Positions 1 through 6,113 of a DNA stretch of 6,113 bases are shown here, piece after piece. The stretch comes from Haloferacaceae archaeon (GTDB taxonomy: Archaea > Halobacteriota > Halobacteria > Halobacteriales > Haloferacaceae). Below the pieces are notes generated by a model. That model did no database searches and was not told the DNA's origin. It saw only the letters and a program-made list of their open reading frames with translations. Made by a program: the position numbers and the translations under genes. Every line of letters begins with the position of its first letter. Positions within the stretch are counted from its first letter, which is position 1. The stretch is from assembly GCA_003554115.1 (NCBI GenBank), contig PWFE01000108.1, positions 1 through 6,113 of the forward strand, written 5' to 3'.

Positions 1-1885
1 GCGATTCTGCGGCCTTCTGCTCGTGTGTGTGACGCGTTGTCCCCCTATATGATCGCACACCGACTGATTGGCTGGTTGTCCTCCGTTGGTTCGATTCTCG
101 ACGGCTCAGATACGCACGATTCGTCGACCTAAGCGAGCGCGTGGAGACGCGAGCACGCCGGCTCGCGCCGCCGACCGTCGGCGCCTCGATGTCGACGTAT
201 TTTGCTACGATGGGTCCGGTCGACCTCGTTTGGCGCGTGTGTGGCCATGCTGTCGCTGGTTCTCTGGGAGTTTCTGCGGACTCTTGGGCGACCGGAAGCA
301 TTGGACGCACCGCAGTCTGTGTTCGGCTTGCGGCACTATCTGTCTGTGCGGCCATCTCATACGTCGACTCGATCTGCACTGACTCATCTTTGACCGGCTG
401 CCTGTTGGAAGGGCTACCACGCGTCAGCTCGTTGTCTCTCGAAGGGCCATAATTTACTGCTTGATGACTTATCACTCGAGTGGGCAACTCAGCCGACGCC
501 GTCCGTCTCAACTTCGTGCTGGTTGTCAACTGATCTCTCGGGTATCGCTGCTGGGTCTGTCGCTGGATTCGAGAGCCAGCTCTTCGAGTACCACTGGTGT
601 CTGTCTTATGCGTTGTTGAGGCGCGTTTGATCGAGACGCTCCGGTTGATCGACCTCTCGAACGAATGTCTGAGGCTGTTGCTGGCTGCCGGTCTCGAAAC
701 GGATGGCACTGCCACTGCCGCCGGCTGGCGACTACTGCCGGTCGACCGCTGTTTGTCTGTGGTTTGATTCTGTGGCTCTTCGTGTAGGGTTGTCGACGCA
801 CCCTGTTCGTGCTGTAGGGGTTCACGACTCGCGGCTGCCGATGCTGTCGGTCTCTCCGCTGGTCTTTCGCTGAACACGAACGACGGCCGACTGTTCGGAT
901 GCCGTCGGACTGCAGGTGGTTGGACTGCGGGTGATTGTGCAGGTGACTGGACTGCGGTGGCCTGCGACTGTCGCTCGCTACTGCTAGTTCTCTCCGGCCT
1001 ACTGGCCGCCGCAGCGCCACGCGCCGGCCACACTGCCCAGCCGGTCGATTGAACACGGTGTTCGGTGCCGACTGGTCGCATCGACGCATCGCGTTCTCTC
1101 GGGCCGCCACCGGCACTCGGCGTTCGAAAGCTGGGCTGACCGTCCGTCTGGGTTGTCGATGTGACGGCTGGCTGCTCGGTCGACGCCGAATGTGTGGAAC
1201 TCCTGTGCGCTTGGCTTTCGGCGACTCGCGGTGGTCGACGGCGTTGAGACGCCCTAATTGGGCTCAGTTTGCCACCTGATAGCTGTCGAGTTGCGTGGTC
1301 GATGCCACTTTGGGCCGGTTTCTCACTGCGGGTGGTCCATCCAGCCACGTTAGGATCTCGTCGGTGGGTGCCAGTATTCTGCCCTCGGGGGTTCGGTGGC
1401 CCAAATCGGTGGTCGCTGAGCGGTGCAGTCGACGACACGGCCGAGCGACTCGCTGGGTCCGATTGCTGTCGTCTTTCGCGGTTGGGGGCTGGTATCGCCG
1501 TCGTTCGATGCTGGAGTGTCGGTCGAGCCTCGGCCAGTCTCTCGGCTCCCGGTGGGGCCTCCGGGAGTGCGTCGACTGCTGGGTCGCCGACTGGCGCCTC
1601 GCCAAACAGTCGATACAACAGTCGTGCGGGGCTGCGACGGTGATAGACGCCGACGGCTAACAGCCCACCGAACGCGCGATTACTCGCTGTTGTCGACTGG
1701 CCGTCGACTGCGGTCGGCGGCTGGGCTGTCACACGCCCGAGTGGCGACCGACCGCGATGGGTTCTCGCTGTCGTGGCTGGCCGGCCCACCGTGTTGTCTG
1801 GTCGATGCTCCGTCTTCTCGGACTGACTCACAGTAATCGACCGAACTCGGCGGTCGACCGTCGGTGTGGTATGGCTGTCGCTCAC
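1..1885 (-). CDS. Long basic, low-complexity disordered protein next to the eCIS cap gene (3' end beyond window)
   Basis: The minus frame whose codons start on positions 2, 5, 8 and so on has no stop from 1891 to the left edge; the preceding stop is TGA at 1894-1892. From GTG at 1885 this gives 628 codons and continues outside the window. I chose this GTG because GGTGA (1896-1892) lies a few bases upstream and matches the haloarchaeal Shine-Dalgarno core. The first in-frame ATG is only at 1081 (residue 269). The product is rich in Ser, Thr, Arg, Gln, Pro and Ala. I see no Cys and only a few Met or Trp. The only compact hydrophobic stretch is about residues 71-100 (around FGGLLAVGV and ARLLYRLFG). 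A degenerate SPA/PPAVQ repeat spans about residues 312-326. Arg clearly outnumbers Asp plus Glu, unusual for a halophile. All other frames here are broken by stops. I recognise no family. Its place after a Pvc16-type gene suggests a structural or cargo protein of an injection particle, but that is inference. Confidence 0.75.
   Translation of the reverse strand, partial: MSDSHTTPTVDRRVRSITVSQSEKTEHRPDNTVGRPATTARTHRGRSPLGRVTAQPPTAVDGQSTTASNRAFGGLLAVGVYHRRSPARLLYRLFGEAPVGDPAVDALPEAPPGAERLAEARPTLQHRTTAIPAPNRERRQQSDPASRSAVSSTAPLSDHRFGPPNPRGQNTGTHRRDPNVAGWTTRSEKPAQSGIDHATRQLSGGKLSPIRASQRRRPPRVAESQAHRSSTHSASTEQPAVTSTTQTDGQPSFRTPSAGGGPRERDASMRPVGTEHRVQSTGWAVWPARGAAAASRPERTSSSERQSQATAVQSPAQSPAVQPPAVRRHPNSRPSFVFSERPAERPTASAAASREPLQHEQGASTTLHEEPQNQTTDKQRSTGSSRQPAAVAVPSVSRPAASNSLRHSFERSINRSVSIKRASTTHKTDTSGTRRAGSRIQRQTQQRYPRDQLTTSTKLRRTASAELPTRVISHQAVNYGPSRDNELTRGSPSNRQPVKDESVQIESTYEMAAQTDSAASRTQTAVRPMLPVAQESAETPREPATAWPHTRQTRSTGPIVAKYVDIEAPTVGGASRRARVSTRSLRSTNRAYLSRRESNQRRTTSQSVGVRSYRGTTRHTHEQKAAES
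907..963 (-). repeat. Degenerate ~15-bp tandem repeat inside the disordered gene
   Basis: On the plus strand the units are GGACTGCAGGTGGTT (907-921), GGACTGCGGGTGATT (922-936), a shortened GTGCAGGTGACT (937-948) and GGACTGCGGTGGCCT (949-963). Unit lengths are multiples of three, so the frame is kept. On the minus strand they encode a SPA/PPAVQ-type repeat. This fits expansion of a flexible proline-rich linker. Confidence 0.6.
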
Positions 1886-1891
1886 CGTCGC

Positions 1892-1896
1892 TCACC
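1892..1896 (-). promoter_or_regulatory. Ribosome binding site (GGTGA) for the long disordered gene
   Basis: GGTGA is complementary to the UCACC part of the archaeal 16S rRNA 3' end and sits 6 nt upstream of GTG 1885. It overlaps the TGA stop of the upstream leader ORF, which fits translational coupling. It decides the start chosen for the long gene. Confidence 0.45.
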
Positions 1897-1981
1897 AGCC
1901 CGCTGTCGACGGCCAGCCAGCGGCACAGCCGGCATGTGCGTCGTCCGAGACATCAGTTACGGTCTGTGGTCCGGTGATCAC
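1892..1981 (-). CDS. 29-codon leader ORF, or N-terminus of the long gene cut off by a TGA
   Basis: GTG at 1981-1979 follows a GAGG motif (1993-1990) with 8 nt between, and starts 13 bp after the stop of the Pvc16-like gene. The 29-residue product begins with V/M-ITGPQTVTDVSDD and ends at TGA 1894-1892. It is in the same frame as the 628-codon gene, whose candidate GTG lies seven bases past this stop. It could be a translated leader coupled to the next gene, or the true N-terminus of the long protein interrupted by a nonsense change or sequencing error. An ATG at 1983 overlaps this GTG but is followed at once by TGA, so it is not a usable start. I recognise no family. Confidence 0.4.
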   Translation of the reverse strand: MITGPQTVTDVSDDAHAGCAAGWPSTAGW

Positions 1982-1989
1982 ATTTAAAT

Positions 1990-1993
1990 CCTC
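1990..1993 (-). promoter_or_regulatory. Ribosome binding site (GAGG) for the leader ORF
   Basis: GAGG lies just after the stop of the Pvc16-like gene (TGA 1997-1995), 8 nt before GTG 1981. It is the best Shine-Dalgarno match in this intergenic gap. It argues that translation restarts here rather than only at GTG 1885. Confidence 0.5.
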
Positions 1994-1994
1994 G

Positions 1995-2603
1995 TCAGCG
2001 TTCGGCGTGTCGGCTGAGAGACGTCTCGCGGTCGGTAACGTGTGTCACTGGCTCTTTGTGCCGCGAGTCAATCACTGCAGAGCGAACGTGATACAGCACT
2101 GAAGGCAGGTCTGCAGTGTCGGGTGTCGCAGACCGGCGAGCCGTCTTCTCGCTGAGTGACTGATTGACAAGTGACACGGTAAGCGGTCCGTCGCCTTCGA
2201 GCCCATCGGTGAGTTGGTCGTCGCTGAGAATCGCGTTGTCATGGAACGTCTGAAGTGCGAGCCCGAAGATGCGCTGTTGTTCGAGTCTCTGGGCCGTCGA
2301 CTTCTCGCTGCCGCCCGCGTGTGCGCTCACCAAATAGTAGAGATCAATCGCGAGTGGCGACTTCTCTGTGACGTTCGGGTCGGTTGGGTGACGCGGCTGG
2401 CTGTTTTTTATCGAGGCGTTTTCTTCGAGGTGGTACAACGAAAGCGATAGCCGCGTTTGGTCGTCCTCGCGGACGTCTTGGGGGTCGACGAGTGCGATGT
2501 GTTCGGCATCCAGCGAGACGAGATCATCGCGGCTGGTGAGGTCCTCACGCAGCACGCCGAGAAGCGTCCGGCTGACCTCGGCAATGGCGGTGTAGGCGGC
2601 CAT
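1995..2603 (-). CDS. DUF4255/Pvc16_N-type protein, putative eCIS tube terminator cap
   Basis: This 202-residue protein matches my memory of the Pvc16 N-terminal family (DUF4255). Signature stretches in order are YTAIAEVSRTLLGVLRE (residues 4-20), RLSLSLYHLEEN (51-62), PLAIDLYYLVSAHA (83-96), QRIFGLALQTFHDNAIL (110-126), LTVSLVNQSLSEKT (141-154), LPSVLYHVRSAVIDS (166-180) and PVTHVTDRE (185-193). Family members such as Afp16/Pvc16 cap the inner tube and set its length in phage-tail-like extracellular contractile injection systems. Length and motif order suggest a complete single domain, although the usual Trp near residue 155-160 seems to be replaced (TARRSATPDT). ATG 2603 is the natural start. 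The long disordered gene follows on the same strand, and a membrane protein gene is divergent. The rest of any eCIS set (sheath, tube, baseplate, AAA ATPase) would have to lie left of the window. Family assignment is fairly sure; the role is inferred from the family. Confidence 0.85.
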   Translation of the reverse strand: MAAYTAIAEVSRTLLGVLREDLTSRDDLVSLDAEHIALVDPQDVREDDQTRLSLSLYHLEENASIKNSQPRHPTDPNVTEKSPLAIDLYYLVSAHAGGSEKSTAQRLEQQRIFGLALQTFHDNAILSDDQLTDGLEGDGPLTVSLVNQSLSEKTARRSATPDTADLPSVLYHVRSAVIDSRHKEPVTHVTDRETSLSRHAER

Positions 2604-2645
2604 ACCGGTGTTGCTGCGTTATCACTGAAAGGGTTTGTGAGCCCG

Positions 2646-2653
2646 TATTTTAA
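2646..2653. promoter_or_regulatory. Shared AT-rich TATA-like box between divergent genes
   Basis: TATTTTAA lies in the 76-bp gap between the Pvc16-like gene (ATG 2603, minus) and the membrane protein gene (ATG 2680, plus). Its centre is about 30 bp before ATG 2680, the spacing expected for a leaderless haloarchaeal transcript. Read on the minus strand it is TTAAAATA, about 46 bp before ATG 2603, which would give a leader of about 20 nt. I see no strong Shine-Dalgarno sequence before either start. One element may serve both directions; use for the plus-strand gene is the better supported. Confidence 0.5.
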
Positions 2654-2679
2654 GTAGGATAACCGATCCAGACTCTCCA

Positions 2680-3789
2680 ATGTCGATCAGCGGCCTCAGA
2701 AAAGCGGGCGAAACATACGCCAAACGATACGCTCGGCTCACGATGCTGTCGGTTGCCGTTGCTGCCGTTCTGACTGCAGTCGTCGGCACAGCCAGCACGC
2801 CGGGCCGCATCGCCGTGCTTTCGAATTGGTTGGCACTGCCAGCGACCGTCGCCGTTTTTATCCAGTGGTTCGGCCTCTGTTTTGCTGTCGGACTGATGAT
2901 TCGAATTCTCTCACAGAACTTCAGCAAGCTACAGGCTGTCTTTGCTGCATGGATCGGTGATCCGATCGGCGAACACTGGAGTCGACTGGCACGCCGAACC
3001 CAAGCCGTCCTGTTCGGCAGCGTGTGTACCCTGCTCGCTGGGACGCTGGCGGCCGCTGGCGTGTTTTACTACGGCTATCCGTACGTGGCTATTGCTGCCG
3101 CGATGAGCTGTACATGGCCGCTTGCAACCTACTGGCTGTTGGGTCGTCGACCGACGTCTGTCCCAACGCAATCAACTATTAGAACCCGATATGCGACGCT
3201 TAGACACCTCGAAACCCGGATTATGTCGGTGCTGTTCGGCTTTTTGTGTACCGTCGTGGTCGCCGGCGGGCTCTGGCTGTTGGGCGTCGAACTCCGGTGG
3301 ATCGGTCTTGTTGGGCTGGTTGTCTGGGTGGTCTCGACGGTCATCGTCTACAATCGGTATGCTGCGACACTGGAGAGACGCTCGGCGCTGACGATTCTCG
3401 ACTCCACTGTACGTGAGAACGGACAGGTCGAACTCGTCGTCCGAAACGACGGCGAGGATACACTTGATCTCTCGCGGGCGATGATCACCGATACCCGAAT
3501 CGACCGGTATCACCTCACCGACTCGCTTCAGCTATCACCGGCTGGCAGTGCCACACTCTGTGTTCCGGAATCGTTTACGGTTGCACCGACAGATGCCAAA
3601 CGGACGCTTCCGTTGGGATATACACTCAATCGCAGCCAGCCGACGCCGGTTGTCTACACACGGTCGGGCATCGCCTACGAACTCACCCACGGTGCGACTG
3701 CTTCTGAAGCGCTGTCCGTCGATCCAACACCGACATACTCCACGTCGTCGACGGCTATAGCCACCGGCACACACAGTCACGAATCCTGA
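2680..3789 (+). CDS. Multi-pass membrane protein with a C-terminal soluble beta-rich domain, family not recognised
   Basis: The 369-residue protein starts at ATG 2680, about 30 bp after a TATA-like box, so it is probably read from a leaderless mRNA. Hydrophobic segments lie near residues 22-38, 50-76, 108-129, 134-154, 182-202 and 206-225, giving about six membrane passes. They form three pairs separated by polar loops (about 78-107 and 155-181). A soluble region follows (about 235-340) with alternating strand-like segments (LTILDSTV, VELVVRNDGEDTLDLS, SATLCVPESF, VVYTRSGIAYEL). It resembles a small beta-sandwich of the kind seen in surface or cell-envelope proteins. The Ser/Thr-rich tail ends with THSHES. 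I recognise no catalytic motif. It is divergent from the Pvc16-like gene, so a link to an injection system, for example as a membrane docking factor, is possible but rests only on position. The 12-bp palindrome GACCGAACGGTC (3788-3799) overlaps its stop codon. Confidence 0.85.
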   Translation: MSISGLRKAGETYAKRYARLTMLSVAVAAVLTAVVGTASTPGRIAVLSNWLALPATVAVFIQWFGLCFAVGLMIRILSQNFSKLQAVFAAWIGDPIGEHWSRLARRTQAVLFGSVCTLLAGTLAAAGVFYYGYPYVAIAAAMSCTWPLATYWLLGRRPTSVPTQSTIRTRYATLRHLETRIMSVLFGFLCTVVVAGGLWLLGVELRWIGLVGLVVWVVSTVIVYNRYAATLERRSALTILDSTVRENGQVELVVRNDGEDTLDLSRAMITDTRIDRYHLTDSLQLSPAGSATLCVPESFTVAPTDAKRTLPLGYTLNRSQPTPVVYTRSGIAYELTHGATASEALSVDPTPTYSTSSTAIATGTHSHES

Positions 3790-3824
3790 CCGAACGGTCG
3801 TTGTCAGCATCTATCTTAGTAATC

Positions 3825-3830
3825 GTTATA
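3825..3830 (+). promoter_or_regulatory. TATA-like box for the acidic surface protein
   Basis: GTTATA is centred about 27 bp upstream of ATG 3855. That is the normal haloarchaeal distance from TATA box to transcription start, so the mRNA would begin at or near the ATG. It supports ATG 3855 over the in-frame TTG at 3801, which would place this element inside the coding sequence. Confidence 0.5.
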
Positions 3831-3854
3831 CGGCGGCTGTTCGTTGGCTCGAAT

Positions 3855-4703
3855 ATGCAACGACGCGCTGTAGCAGTGTCTGTCGTGTTTTTCGTGCTCG
3901 TCGCGACAGCATCATATGCGCTTATCGCAACAGCCGAAGAGCCGACGATCACCCTCGAAGACGCCGACTACGAGCTCTCTGAAGGCGAGGAGTTCACTGT
4001 TGGTGACCGAACGTACACCGTCGCCGAAATCGAAGAAACTGAAGACGAAGAAGACGGGAGTATAACCTTCGCGGGGACGATTGAATGGGTCGAAGAGGAC
4101 GTTGAAATGACTGAGCTGTGGGCCGACGGCGATACCGTCGTGATCGACGACACCGACTGGGAAGTCCAGATCGATGACGACGACGAGCCGACCGCGTTCA
4201 CTCTCGAAGAGATTCTTGACAGACAGGCGATTCTCGAAGCCGATCCCAACGCCGATAACGAAACCGTCGACCGAGACGACGGGGAGTTCGTTGTCGTTGA
4301 GTCGAACGGTGACGAAGAACTCATTCCCGCCGAAGAGTACTTCGATGATCCTGCAACGATCACATACTCTGAGGGAGACAGCTTTGCCTACGACGGCCAG
4401 ACGGTGACTGTCTCTGAAGTGACCGAGACTGATGTCACGCTCACGTGGACTGAAGACGAAACCCAATCGGAGTCGCTCGAACAGGGTGGGATGGTCGAAC
4501 TCGCTGACGGCACCGAGTATCTGAGCTTCTTCCCCGGCGAAAACACGGTGATGCTCACCGAAGATACATCGAGCTACGACGCACAAGCCGAATCCCAACA
4601 GCAGTTCGCTGACCGGATCAGCGGGCTTACCTACACGATTGTCACTTCGCTGTTGTTCGTCTTCTCGCTGATCATGTTCGCGTTCCTCCCCTCGCGGTAC
4701 TGA
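3855..4703 (+). CDS. Highly acidic, double-anchored surface protein with internal duplication, family not recognised
   Basis: I start this 282-residue protein at ATG 3855, which gives a classic N-terminus: two Arg (MQRRA), then a hydrophobic segment (about residues 5-26) acting as a signal peptide or anchor. The middle (27-255) is extremely rich in Asp and Glu, as expected for a part exposed to high salt. A second hydrophobic segment (about 258-277) is followed by the short tail LPSRY. The topology suggests both ends in the membrane and the acidic part outside. Two stretches look homologous: about 38-108 (YELSEGEEFTVGDRTYTVAE, then TIEWVEED and a VVIDDTDWEV strand) and about 169-236 (ITYSEGDSFAYDGQTVTVSE, then TLTWTEDE and YLSFFPGENTVML). 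They read as two small beta domains separated by a linker (109-168) with a possible NET glycosylation sequon at 135-137. I see no enzyme motif. It has its own promoter and converges on the methyltransferase gene. Confidence 0.85.
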   Translation: MQRRAVAVSVVFFVLVATASYALIATAEEPTITLEDADYELSEGEEFTVGDRTYTVAEIEETEDEEDGSITFAGTIEWVEEDVEMTELWADGDTVVIDDTDWEVQIDDDDEPTAFTLEEILDRQAILEADPNADNETVDRDDGEFVVVESNGDEELIPAEEYFDDPATITYSEGDSFAYDGQTVTVSEVTETDVTLTWTEDETQSESLEQGGMVELADGTEYLSFFPGENTVMLTEDTSSYDAQAESQQQFADRISGLTYTIVTSLLFVFSLIMFAFLPSRY

Positions 4704-4707
4704 GCAC

Positions 4708-5802
4708 TCAGCGGTTTTTTCTCGTTTCTTCGGCTTCGAACCCGACTGTCGTCTGCCAGTCCGCCCCGACCGGTGTATGGGTGAGCCGGTAGCTCTGTTC
4801 GCCGTATTCGATTTCCTCGATGCCGTACAGCTCGATTGAGCGTTCCTGTTTTGTCATCACCGGAAACGCATAGTTTTCGGCCTCGTACTCGAACGTTTCG
4901 CCGTCGGCACGTCGATCCGACACAAAGTCAATGTGTGCGCTGAGTCGACGGCTGATAACCTCGTCGGTGATCGACGGTATCGAATCGACGCGTTGGTCGA
5001 ACGCGGTTCGAAAGCCACTGTCGAGTTCTTTGCCGACCGAGTGTCGACCCGCAGCCATCGCCGCCAGCGTTGTGGTACCGGTTCCCCAAAACGGGTCGAG
5101 GACGGTATCGCCGTACACTGAGTACATACTGATCAGCCGGTAGGGGATCACAAACGGGTAGGCACCCGACCGCTCGCGGGACTCGCCACCGGTTAGCTGT
5201 TGGCTACGGCCGGTGATCTCGGTCCACAGATCGCTGAACCAGCGGTTCCGCTCTTCCCAAAAGTAGGCCGCGCTGTACCGTCGGTCGGCGTTCGGCTCGA
5301 ACGATCGCTTATCGGAGCCGTTGCGAAACACGAGGATGTGTTCGTGTTCGAGGGTGGGATAGGCGTTGGGCGGCAACATTCCAGAGCCCATGAACTTGGT
5401 TGCGCTGTTGGTGGGTTTGCGCCACAGAATTGACGGCAACGGCTCGAAGCCCAACGAATCAAACGCCGAGACGATCCGGCTGTGGTTCTGGTAGCGACGA
5501 AACGAGCCGTCGACCCGCCGGGTGGCATCGCCAACGTTGATACAGGCGATCCCACCGTCGACGAGCACACCCTGGAGTTCGGCCCAGGCTGCATCCAGGA
5601 CGCCGTGCATCGCCTCGAATGCCGCGCGGCCGTCGCCTGCCTCCAGATGGGCTTCGATCTGTGGATCGAGCGAACAGAACAGCTCGTCCCACATCTCGAT
5701 CATCGGATACGGGGGGGATGTAACGACGAGGTCGACAGAATTGGGTTTGAGCTCGTCGAGCGACCGCGAATCACCGGTATGGACGCGATGCTCCGTTTCC
5801 AT
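4708..5802 (-). CDS. zim: Beta-class DNA methyltransferase, probable CTAG m4C methylase Zim
   Basis: This 364-residue enzyme would transfer a methyl group from S-adenosylmethionine to an exocyclic amino group in DNA. Catalytic motif IV is TSPPYP at residues 28-33, the form typical of N4-cytosine enzymes. The cofactor motif I is DPFWGTGTT at 236-244, followed by GKELD (257-261) as motif II. Motif IV before motif I is the beta-class order. A specificity region lies between them (about 90-225, with KFMGSGMLPPNAYPTLEHEH at 136-155), and an acidic C-terminal extension of about 90 residues follows. I see no restriction endonuclease gene beside it, so it looks like an orphan methylase. The sequence TSPPYPMIEMWDELF and the length resemble the haloarchaeal Zim family (HVO_0794 of Haloferax volcanii), which modifies CTAG. 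The strong lack of CTAG in this window fits that but does not prove it. Being a methyltransferase is near certain; the CTAG specificity is a family-based guess. Confidence 0.9.
   Translation of the reverse strand: METEHRVHTGDSRSLDELKPNSVDLVVTSPPYPMIEMWDELFCSLDPQIEAHLEAGDGRAAFEAMHGVLDAAWAELQGVLVDGGIACINVGDATRRVDGSFRRYQNHSRIVSAFDSLGFEPLPSILWRKPTNSATKFMGSGMLPPNAYPTLEHEHILVFRNGSDKRSFEPNADRRYSAAYFWEERNRWFSDLWTEITGRSQQLTGGESRERSGAYPFVIPYRLISMYSVYGDTVLDPFWGTGTTTLAAMAAGRHSVGKELDSGFRTAFDQRVDSIPSITDEVISRRLSAHIDFVSDRRADGETFEYEAENYAFPVMTKQERSIELYGIEEIEYGEQSYRLTHTPVGADWQTTVGFEAEETRKNR
4713..4730 (+). terminator. Oligo-T terminator for the acidic protein gene
   Basis: GGTTTTTTCTCGTTTCTT lies ten bases after the stop at 4701-4703. 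Archaeal RNA polymerase stops at T-rich tracts without needing a hairpin. The tract also encodes the Lys-rich end (RKN) of the convergent methyltransferase, so it does two jobs. Confidence 0.5.
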
Positions 5803-5937
5803 TACAAATTACTATTCAGTATTGAGTAAAAGATTTTGGTGTTGACTTACAGCATTTGATAATTATTGTAAAAATGTACGTCGACTGTCTGTCTCTGGTC
5901 GCCTCATATCTGCGCTATGTGGAATGGACACGATGGG
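5803..5937. other. AT-rich intergenic region
   Basis: The stretch between the methyltransferase start and the stem-loops holds an AT-rich half (about 5803-5876), where the methyltransferase promoter lies, and a mixed half with no clear signal. A 37-codon plus-strand frame (5874-5987) runs through it but ends inside the stem-loops and is not convincing. Confidence 0.5.
5827..5831 (-). promoter_or_regulatory. TATA-like box for the methyltransferase
   Basis: On the minus strand TTTTA is centred 27 bp upstream of ATG 5802, within an AT-rich stretch (about 5800-5876) that stands out from its GC-rich surroundings. No Shine-Dalgarno sequence precedes the ATG, which fits a leaderless transcript. Confidence 0.45.
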
Positions 5938-5972
5938 ACTCCCACGAGCGACCGGAGGGAGCGAGTGGGAGT
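5938..5972. repeat. Stem-loop 1 (8-bp stem, 19-nt loop)
   Basis: ACTCCCAC (5938-5945) pairs perfectly with GTGGGAGT (5965-5972) around the 19-nt loop GAGCGACCGGAGGGAGCGA. The loop matches that of stem-loop 2 at 14 of 19 positions, although the stems differ. Its position downstream of the tRNA on the minus strand would suit a processing or termination element. Confidence 0.65.
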
Positions 5973-5974
5973 AA

Positions 5975-6015
5975 ATCGTGCCCGTGAGGGAACGAAGTGA
6001 CCGAACGGGCACGAT
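5975..6015. repeat. Stem-loop 2 (11-bp stem, 19-nt loop) sharing the tRNA 3' end
   Basis: ATCGTGCCCGT (5975-5985) pairs perfectly with ACGGGCACGAT (6005-6015) around the 19-nt loop GAGGGAACGAAGTGACCGA. The second arm is the 3' acceptor strand and discriminator base of tRNA-Arg plus two T-stem bases and one trailer base. In the precursor RNA this hairpin would therefore compete with the acceptor stem. It lies only 2 bp from stem-loop 1. Confidence 0.7.
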
Positions 6016-6080
6016 GGGATTCGAACCCACGACCATTTGGTTAGAAGCCAAACGCTCTGTCCAGACTGAGCTACGTGCCC
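6006..6080 (-). tRNA. tRNA-Arg, anticodon UCU (reads AGA/AGG)
   Basis: The 75-nt gene folds into a full cloverleaf on the minus strand. The acceptor stem is GGGCACG (6080-6074) with CGTGCCC (6013-6007). After TA comes the D arm GCTC/GAGC, then the anticodon stem TTTGG/CCAAA around loop CTTCTAA. The anticodon TCT is at 6045-6043. The variable stretch is TGGTC, and the T arm is GTGGG-TTCGAAT-CCCAT with one G-T closing pair. The discriminator is G at 6006. There is no intron and no encoded CCA, as is usual in haloarchaea. Only 33 bp upstream lie in the window, and I see no clear promoter there. Confidence 0.97.
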
Positions 6081-6113
6081 TCATCCAATGGTCGACCAAT
6101 AACGTACAAAGCC

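Follow-up and report, generated by a model that had tools for sequence, protein, structure and literature searches.

A hidden giant gene in a haloarchaeal contractile injection system locus, a candidate for a disordered spike plug

The DNA considered here (the window) is a stretch of 6,113 nucleotides from a Haloferacaceae archaeon (contig PWFE01000108.1 of assembly GCA_003554115.1, positions 1 to 6,113 of the forward strand). Its first 1,891 bases look non-coding, and one minus-strand frame passes through them from 1891 to base 1. The locus raises two questions: is this frame a gene and, if so, in which machine does its product work? An earlier note, made from the letters of the DNA, took it for a hidden coding frame of at least 628 codons, an interpretation that is supported by the relatives described below. 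Membership of this gene in a contractile injection system (CIS) was beyond what the note could see.

A stop-free frame and the relatives that keep it

The frame holds no stop in its 630 codons, as the earlier note had stated, and all 30 minus-strand stop trinucleotides between 1 and 1891 sit in the other two minus frames (13 and 17); the three plus frames hold 12, 11 and 12. At the composition of this stretch the stop probability is 0.0266 per codon, which gives one stop in about 38 codons, not the roughly 30 assumed in the note, and about 17 stops would be expected. A stop-free run of 628 codons then arises by chance with p = 4e-8, before correction for frames. Shuffling the mononucleotides 2,000 times gives longest open runs, over all six frames, with a median of 180 codons, a 99% point of 313 and a maximum of 405. 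The note's remark on the other frames, that none stays open for long, is only roughly right: a second minus frame is open over 245 codons.

The stretch does have the non-coding look ascribed to it. GC content in the giant frame is flat over the codon positions (0.629/0.639/0.607), unlike in the four neighbouring genes, and the coding-potential check proposed in the note finds a weak three-base periodicity, 3.5 chi units per 100 codons where the neighbours have 11-49; yet the value of 22.1 lies well above the mean of 6.1 in 1,000 shuffles (shuffle maximum 26.1). Both properties would suit a chance or decayed frame in non-coding DNA, as would the minus-strand T content of just 13%, which thins out stops. 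Such an origin is nevertheless highly improbable: stops are avoided in the giant frame alone, and a chance frame is rejected because relatives conserve this one, over 1,310 and 1,429 residues in two proteins and over 2,322 codons in Haloferax larsenii, with both ends conserved.

These relatives escape a search at the ORF's own length, in which candidates are restricted to 0.55-1.75 times 628 aa and none of the 7,991 scored reaches E 1. A lengthened query, which admits longer proteins (7,983 candidates scored), finds two metagenome proteins, P0022 (1,310 aa, 98% identity over 97%) and P0023 (1,429 aa, 35% identity over 54%, E 1.9e-23). The window frame and P0022 are separated by 13 substitutions in 609 residues, without gaps; by this comparison P0022 is a near-identical strain or assembly, and therefore carries little weight as an independent witness, whereas P0023 is an independent relative. 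When P0023 is aligned to bases 1-1891 by tblastn, its residue 1 falls on base 1885 in the giant frame (E 5e-29, composition-corrected), and the sole matches in other frames have E of 0.09 and 0.57. Homologues that keep the frame, named in the note as a test, are thus found, and the common N-terminal start (MSDEHARPTVDRR against MSDSHTTPTVDRR) supports the GTG at 1885, the start codon suggested there, over the alternative in Table 1. A perfect tandem 10-base repeat, GTCGCTCACC, lies right on this start. A scan for promoters and terminators around it, made with bacterial patterns, returned nothing useful.

Conservation is strongest in window-frame residues 70-115 and over the final 31 residues of the full-length proteins. 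An early stop past the left edge, which the note had set against a gene, is contradicted by the relatives: P0022 goes on for 700 codons beyond this point and P0023 extends to its full 1,429 aa. If it ends as P0022 does, the window gene would continue for about 700 more codons. Judged by this conservation, the giant minus frame is a real gene with its 5' half in the window, and its product is about 1,330 aa long in the window lineage; those of relatives have 1,429 and 2,283 aa.

Table 1. Features of the window, with positions counted from its first base
Feature	Position	Strand	Remarks
Giant CIS gene, 5' half	2..1885	minus	GTG start at 1885; 628 codons in the window; runs past base 1
Alternative GTG start, residue 19	1829..1831	minus	P0022 called from there; P0023 favours 1885
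Conserved N-terminal block, residues 70-115	1541..1678	minus	RAFGG...SPARLLYRxFGExPVGDPAVDALPEAPPGAE; alignment with P0022 and P0023
Tandem 10-base repeat	1877..1896		At the GTG start
Pvc16/DUF4255 gene, CIS component	1995..2603	minus	Upstream of the giant frame; PF14065, E 3.8e-27
Membrane protein gene	2680..3789	plus	Divergent from the Pvc16 gene; relative of the H. larsenii gene upstream of the giant frame
Gene for a very acidic protein	3855..4703	plus	26% D+E, 2.5% K+R
N6/N4 DNA methyltransferase gene	4708..5802	minus
tRNA-Arg(TCT) gene	6006..6080	minus	Close to the methyltransferase gene

The injection system locus and the slot upstream of LysM

The giant gene lies in a haloarchaeal CIS locus, a membership assigned because the Pvc16 gene stands directly upstream. 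Metagenomes hold 17 relatives of this Pvc16 at 55-76% identity, plus a near-identical one; a search of genome contigs yields one Nitrospirota locus and a search in phages none. The divergent membrane protein is related to its H. larsenii counterpart (33% over 248 aa, E 3e-36); a tail of about 145 residues comes after its hydrophobic segments. For Hbor_38620, the proposed T6SS membrane anchor of Halogeometricum borinquense, six transmembrane helices and a cytoplasmic domain of about 150 residues are described (PMC11566945), and the window protein fits this anchor when set beside that published description. It also has a weak NCBIfam SLATT_1 match, under the cut-off.

With Pvc16 and an anchor-like membrane protein, the window resembles the CIS/T6SS of H. 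borinquense, a machine of the same type in haloarchaea. The difference lies in the parts list. PMC11566945 reports the plug cis6, the tape measure cis14 and the crown cis19 as not found, and the archaeal T6SS as published there has neither plug nor tape measure. For cis6, for cis14 or for both, the hidden frame is a candidate.

The haloarchaeal comparison is made with one locus, that of H. larsenii, where plasmid NZ_CP078064.1 carries an open frame of 2,322 codons (locus L007, 35229-42197, minus strand). The gene listed there (WP_007542093.1) covers only the last 177 of them, and two small genes are listed antisense to the frame, in a PLSDB gene table that is incomplete. A membrane-protein gene lies directly upstream of the frame, and the stop codon of the frame abuts the gene for a LysM protein. 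The C-terminal end, SMQLNADVDRLVDVLYRKLERKHRMERQRRGF, corresponds to SLSYDADVDRLVETLYRRLERRVRIERERRGR in P0022; when the C-terminal segment is scored over 1,508 frames of seven loci, H. larsenii reaches 106 and Paenibacillus 76, and the next frame 47. The N-terminus contains a weaker form of the N-terminal block, with a score of 58 that 3 of 1,000 shuffles reach. Codon-position GC is flat, like that of the window frame (0.605/0.638/0.585), against 0.563/0.374/0.788 in the adjoining LysM gene. The earlier suggestion that a gene finder could miss such a frame is partly borne out by this listing, although P0022 was called. Because 177 of 2,322 codons are listed, annotation can evidently drop or truncate the giant gene, and both surveys of annotated proteins and length-banded similarity searches can miss it.

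The C-terminal segment, DxDRLxxxxYRxLERxxRIERERRG, is present in P0022, P0023 and H. larsenii. Since the gene runs out of the window, its own C-terminus and LysM neighbour are presumed from these relatives. The segment is amphipathic and helix-like, with a hydrophobic moment that 1.4% of 5,000 shuffles reach, on account of which a C-terminal helix is proposed. The LysM protein of H. larsenii, used as a query in plasmids, has matches in 53 records, in 11 of which (L007, L008, L009 and L011-L018) the slot upstream of LysM was examined. A profile of the three haloarchaeal C-termini, H. larsenii included, was compared with 3,835 frames from 15 loci. Its best matches beyond H. larsenii are the extreme C-termini of frames that stand directly upstream of LysM, those of Nostoc with E 1.5e-5, of Rhizobium with 2.3e-5 and of Paenibacillus with 9.7e-5, followed by Embleya (0.2, or 0.005 with a six-sequence profile) and then by matches of 1.1 and above; reversed frames give E 1.0 at best. 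By these profiles there is a slot family, in which a conserved C-terminal segment ends frames directly upstream of LysM/Cis7. It clearly includes 4 of the 11 slots (H. larsenii, Nostoc, Rhizobium and Paenibacillus) and weakly a fifth (Embleya). Three slots hold proteins of 59-71 aa (Cereibacter, Roseomonas and Streptomyces) and that of Treponema is empty. The frames of Rhodococcus and Paraburkholderia look alike by eye, but are not counted as members because the profiles give no support (Paraburkholderia E 5.9).

The LysM protein of Nostoc matches solved Cis7-type chains, among them 7b5h All3321 and 7aeb. Its locus is listed in the order DUF4255, accessory protein, sheath genes, tube, assembly protein, DUF6760, tube, slot, LysM and VgrG/Pvc8, with a slot protein of 524 aa. 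The bacterial relatives have no match to the N-terminal block, and seven slot frames searched against Pfam gave nothing. Hydrophobic content rises from 13-15% in haloarchaea to 23% in Paenibacillus, 24% in Rhizobium and 33% in Nostoc, and K+R exceeds D+E in seven of the eight long slot proteins, that of H. larsenii being the exception; in both counts the values for Rhizobium, Rhodococcus, Embleya and Paraburkholderia come from stop-to-stop frames that may include non-coding ends. By composition, the Nostoc slot protein is like a folded protein, and the disorder-like character is strongest in haloarchaea. The short slot proteins have chance-level matches only in Pfam and the PDB; aligned with two of them by hhalign, the C-terminal profile gives a probability of 1.3% and E 0.041.

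Two bacterial slots deserve a remark on their gene structure. In Paenibacillus cellulosilyticus (L008 25095-27637, plus strand) a 352-aa frame, which we take to start like a DUF6760 protein, overlaps the 532-aa slot frame, so that there are either two genes or one that is shifted. In Rhodococcus sp. WB1 (L014 6969-7973, plus strand) a frame of 334 codons lies upstream of LysM, and an 85-aa hypothetical protein at its end is all that is listed of it.

Plug, cargo or tape measure

Between its conserved parts the giant protein is rich in Arg, Ser, Thr, Ala, Pro and Gln, with 12-15% hydrophobic residues. It falls on the disordered side of the charge-hydropathy boundary, and the Pvc16 control does not; judged by composition, it is intrinsically disordered. 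It contains no hydrophobic segment and has no coiled-coil look. Structure prediction, a check put forward in the earlier note, gives no confident fold with an alignment of three sequences (mean pLDDT 34.8, pTM 0.15), and no N-terminal strand is modelled.

Databases offer little to compare it with. The ORF has no match in Pfam, NCBIfam or the PDB, and full-length P0022 and P0023 have none in Pfam and PHROGs, tape-measure families included. In plasmids, tblastn with the ORF and with P0022 finds nothing, and nucleotide similarity is confined to five records with chance pieces of 30-48 bases. Viral contigs hold no relative of the ORF, of Pvc16 (as a single sequence or an alignment), of the membrane protein or of the P0022/P0023 alignment. 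A 32-aa piece resembles the ParB dimerisation domain PF23552 (E 0.0016, 18.3 bits against a cut-off of 23.8), a reading dropped because full-length P0022 has no match. Full-text literature, a coverage that leaves subscription journals and bioRxiv largely outside, contains no publication on the giant protein that could be found.

In classical systems cis6 lies directly upstream of cis7, and because the frames described here stand directly upstream of LysM/Cis7, the slot is read as the place of Cis6/Alg6. With a probability of roughly 60%, the giant gene encodes a disordered CIS component that corresponds, in haloarchaea, to the Cis6/Alg6 spike plug and has an arm that fills the tube lumen.

The plug is described for two systems. 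In AlgoCIS, Alg6 has a strand at its N-terminus and a helix at its C-terminus, with a flexible loop between them; three copies of it sit in the tube-facing cavity of the spike and touch Alg7 and Alg8, and without Alg6 no particles were found (PMC8894135). In Anabaena, three Cis6 copies plug the spike, in a partly built model with a flexible loop reaching into the lumen (PMC8894136). The lumen of the CIS tube is called negatively charged in both sources, which the surplus of K+R in seven of the eight long slot proteins would suit, though not the H. larsenii protein. By analogy, the C-terminal helix of the giant protein, probably trimeric, would occupy the cavity at the junction of the spike (Cis8) with the tube initiators (Cis7/Cis5) and would nucleate assembly. 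The long disordered arm, of more than 1,000 residues, would be the enlarged counterpart of the short flexible Alg6 loop; it would fill the negatively charged lumen and may also set the length of the tube.

The likeness to the plugs of AlgoCIS and Anabaena, and to Afp6/Pvc6, consists in a gene beside Cis7 in a CIS cluster with Pvc16, a C-terminal helix-like segment and a flexible part able to lie in the lumen. The giant protein differs from them in its size, 1,300-2,300 aa against the "small plug" spoken of in PMC8894135, in its disordered arm and in an N-terminal block of another kind. Of the short-plug architecture (strand, loop, helix), the C-terminal segment alone fits. Searched against the PDB, the C-terminal pieces give nothing, or chance matches to non-CIS chains. 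Because the giant protein matches no solved plug, or any CIS chain, in the PDB, it is not filed as a member of Cis6; it probably works like a Cis6 plug.

Disorder and position also recall Streptomyces effectors. The giant protein might be cargo like the tape-measure-related effectors Tme and Sle1, with which it shares large size, disorder and a gene beside baseplate genes; it would be carried inside the tube, anchored by its C-terminal segment, and expelled on firing. Tme is described as a large protein, about 70% of it disordered, whose gene stands immediately upstream of baseplate genes and which associates with the spike and the tube initiator (PMC11126660), Sle1 as packaged in the tube (PMC13277306), and CIS signal peptides as disordered and slightly basic (PMC11297309). 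Cargo is nonetheless quite improbable. Unlike Tme and Sle1, the giant protein has no DUF4157, nuclease or other domain, membrane helices or C-terminal enzyme domain; Pfam finds no DUF4157 or toxin domain in P0022, P0023 or the H. larsenii frame, and the C-terminus is conserved where Tme has its toxin domain. The gene occupies a structural slot across several phyla. No such protein is among those named in the H. borinquense secretome comparison, in which an unannotated frame would be unmatchable.

The giant protein may, on another view, be the missing tape measure, a Cis14-like chain stretched along the growing tube from a C-terminus in the hub to an N-terminal block at the other end; its length would set that of the tube, and it would not plug the spike. 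Tape measures are the largest gene of their locus and lie near hub genes. The giant gene, too, is the largest of its locus and stands beside hub genes and, as in the tape measures of phages and CIS (Cis14, Afp14), the ends of its product are conserved and the middle is of very variable length; PMC11126660 says likewise of the placement and size of the Tme gene. The absence of cis14 from H. borinquense, as reported in PMC11566945, would be explained as well. Contracted sheaths of that species measure 220 +/- 16 nm with a rise of 1.709 nm (PMC11566945), which by our division (220/1.709) corresponds to about 129 rings, against 23 sheath layers in Anabaena (PMC8894136), and there is therefore room for a long lumenal protein. 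A tape measure is still unlikely, since the giant protein differs from the known ones in having no helical or membrane segments, no coiled-coil look and no Pfam or PHROGs tape-measure match. At a helix rise of 0.15 nm per residue, moreover, 1,330 residues reach about 200 nm only. A figure legend in PMC11566945 also calls the H. borinquense sheath lengths heterogeneous.

The preferred reading as a plug has a tentative extension, in itself rather doubtful, in which one giant protein serves as both plug and ruler in haloarchaeal T6SS-like machines and in some bacterial CIS. A trimer of the C-terminal helix would seal the spike, and the unstructured arm of 1,300-2,300 residues would occupy the acidic lumen and replace the helical tape measure in setting tube length. 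If this were so, the two archaeal parts reported missing would be one overlooked gene, and they would have gone missing because annotation drops or truncates it. As a candidate for one or both parts, the gene would offer a testable handle on assembly and length control, and it would show that giant disordered proteins are able to serve inside such machines.

Other genes of the two haloarchaeal loci

The very acidic protein encoded beyond the membrane protein gene of the window has, by eye, a hydrophobic stretch at either end and matches PF05354 (phage head-tail attachment) with 25.6 bits, just below the cut-off of 26. The methyltransferase has relatives on haloarchaeal and Methanothermobacter plasmids, the closest plasmid matches being those of Natrinema (64%) and Salinibaculum (63%), which gives the window a haloarchaeal look. 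The CIS locus of H. larsenii encodes two DUF4157 proteins (L007 9405-10751 and 22999-24549, both on the minus strand), whose middles are nearly identical and whose C-terminal parts are different, as expected of exchangeable cargo.
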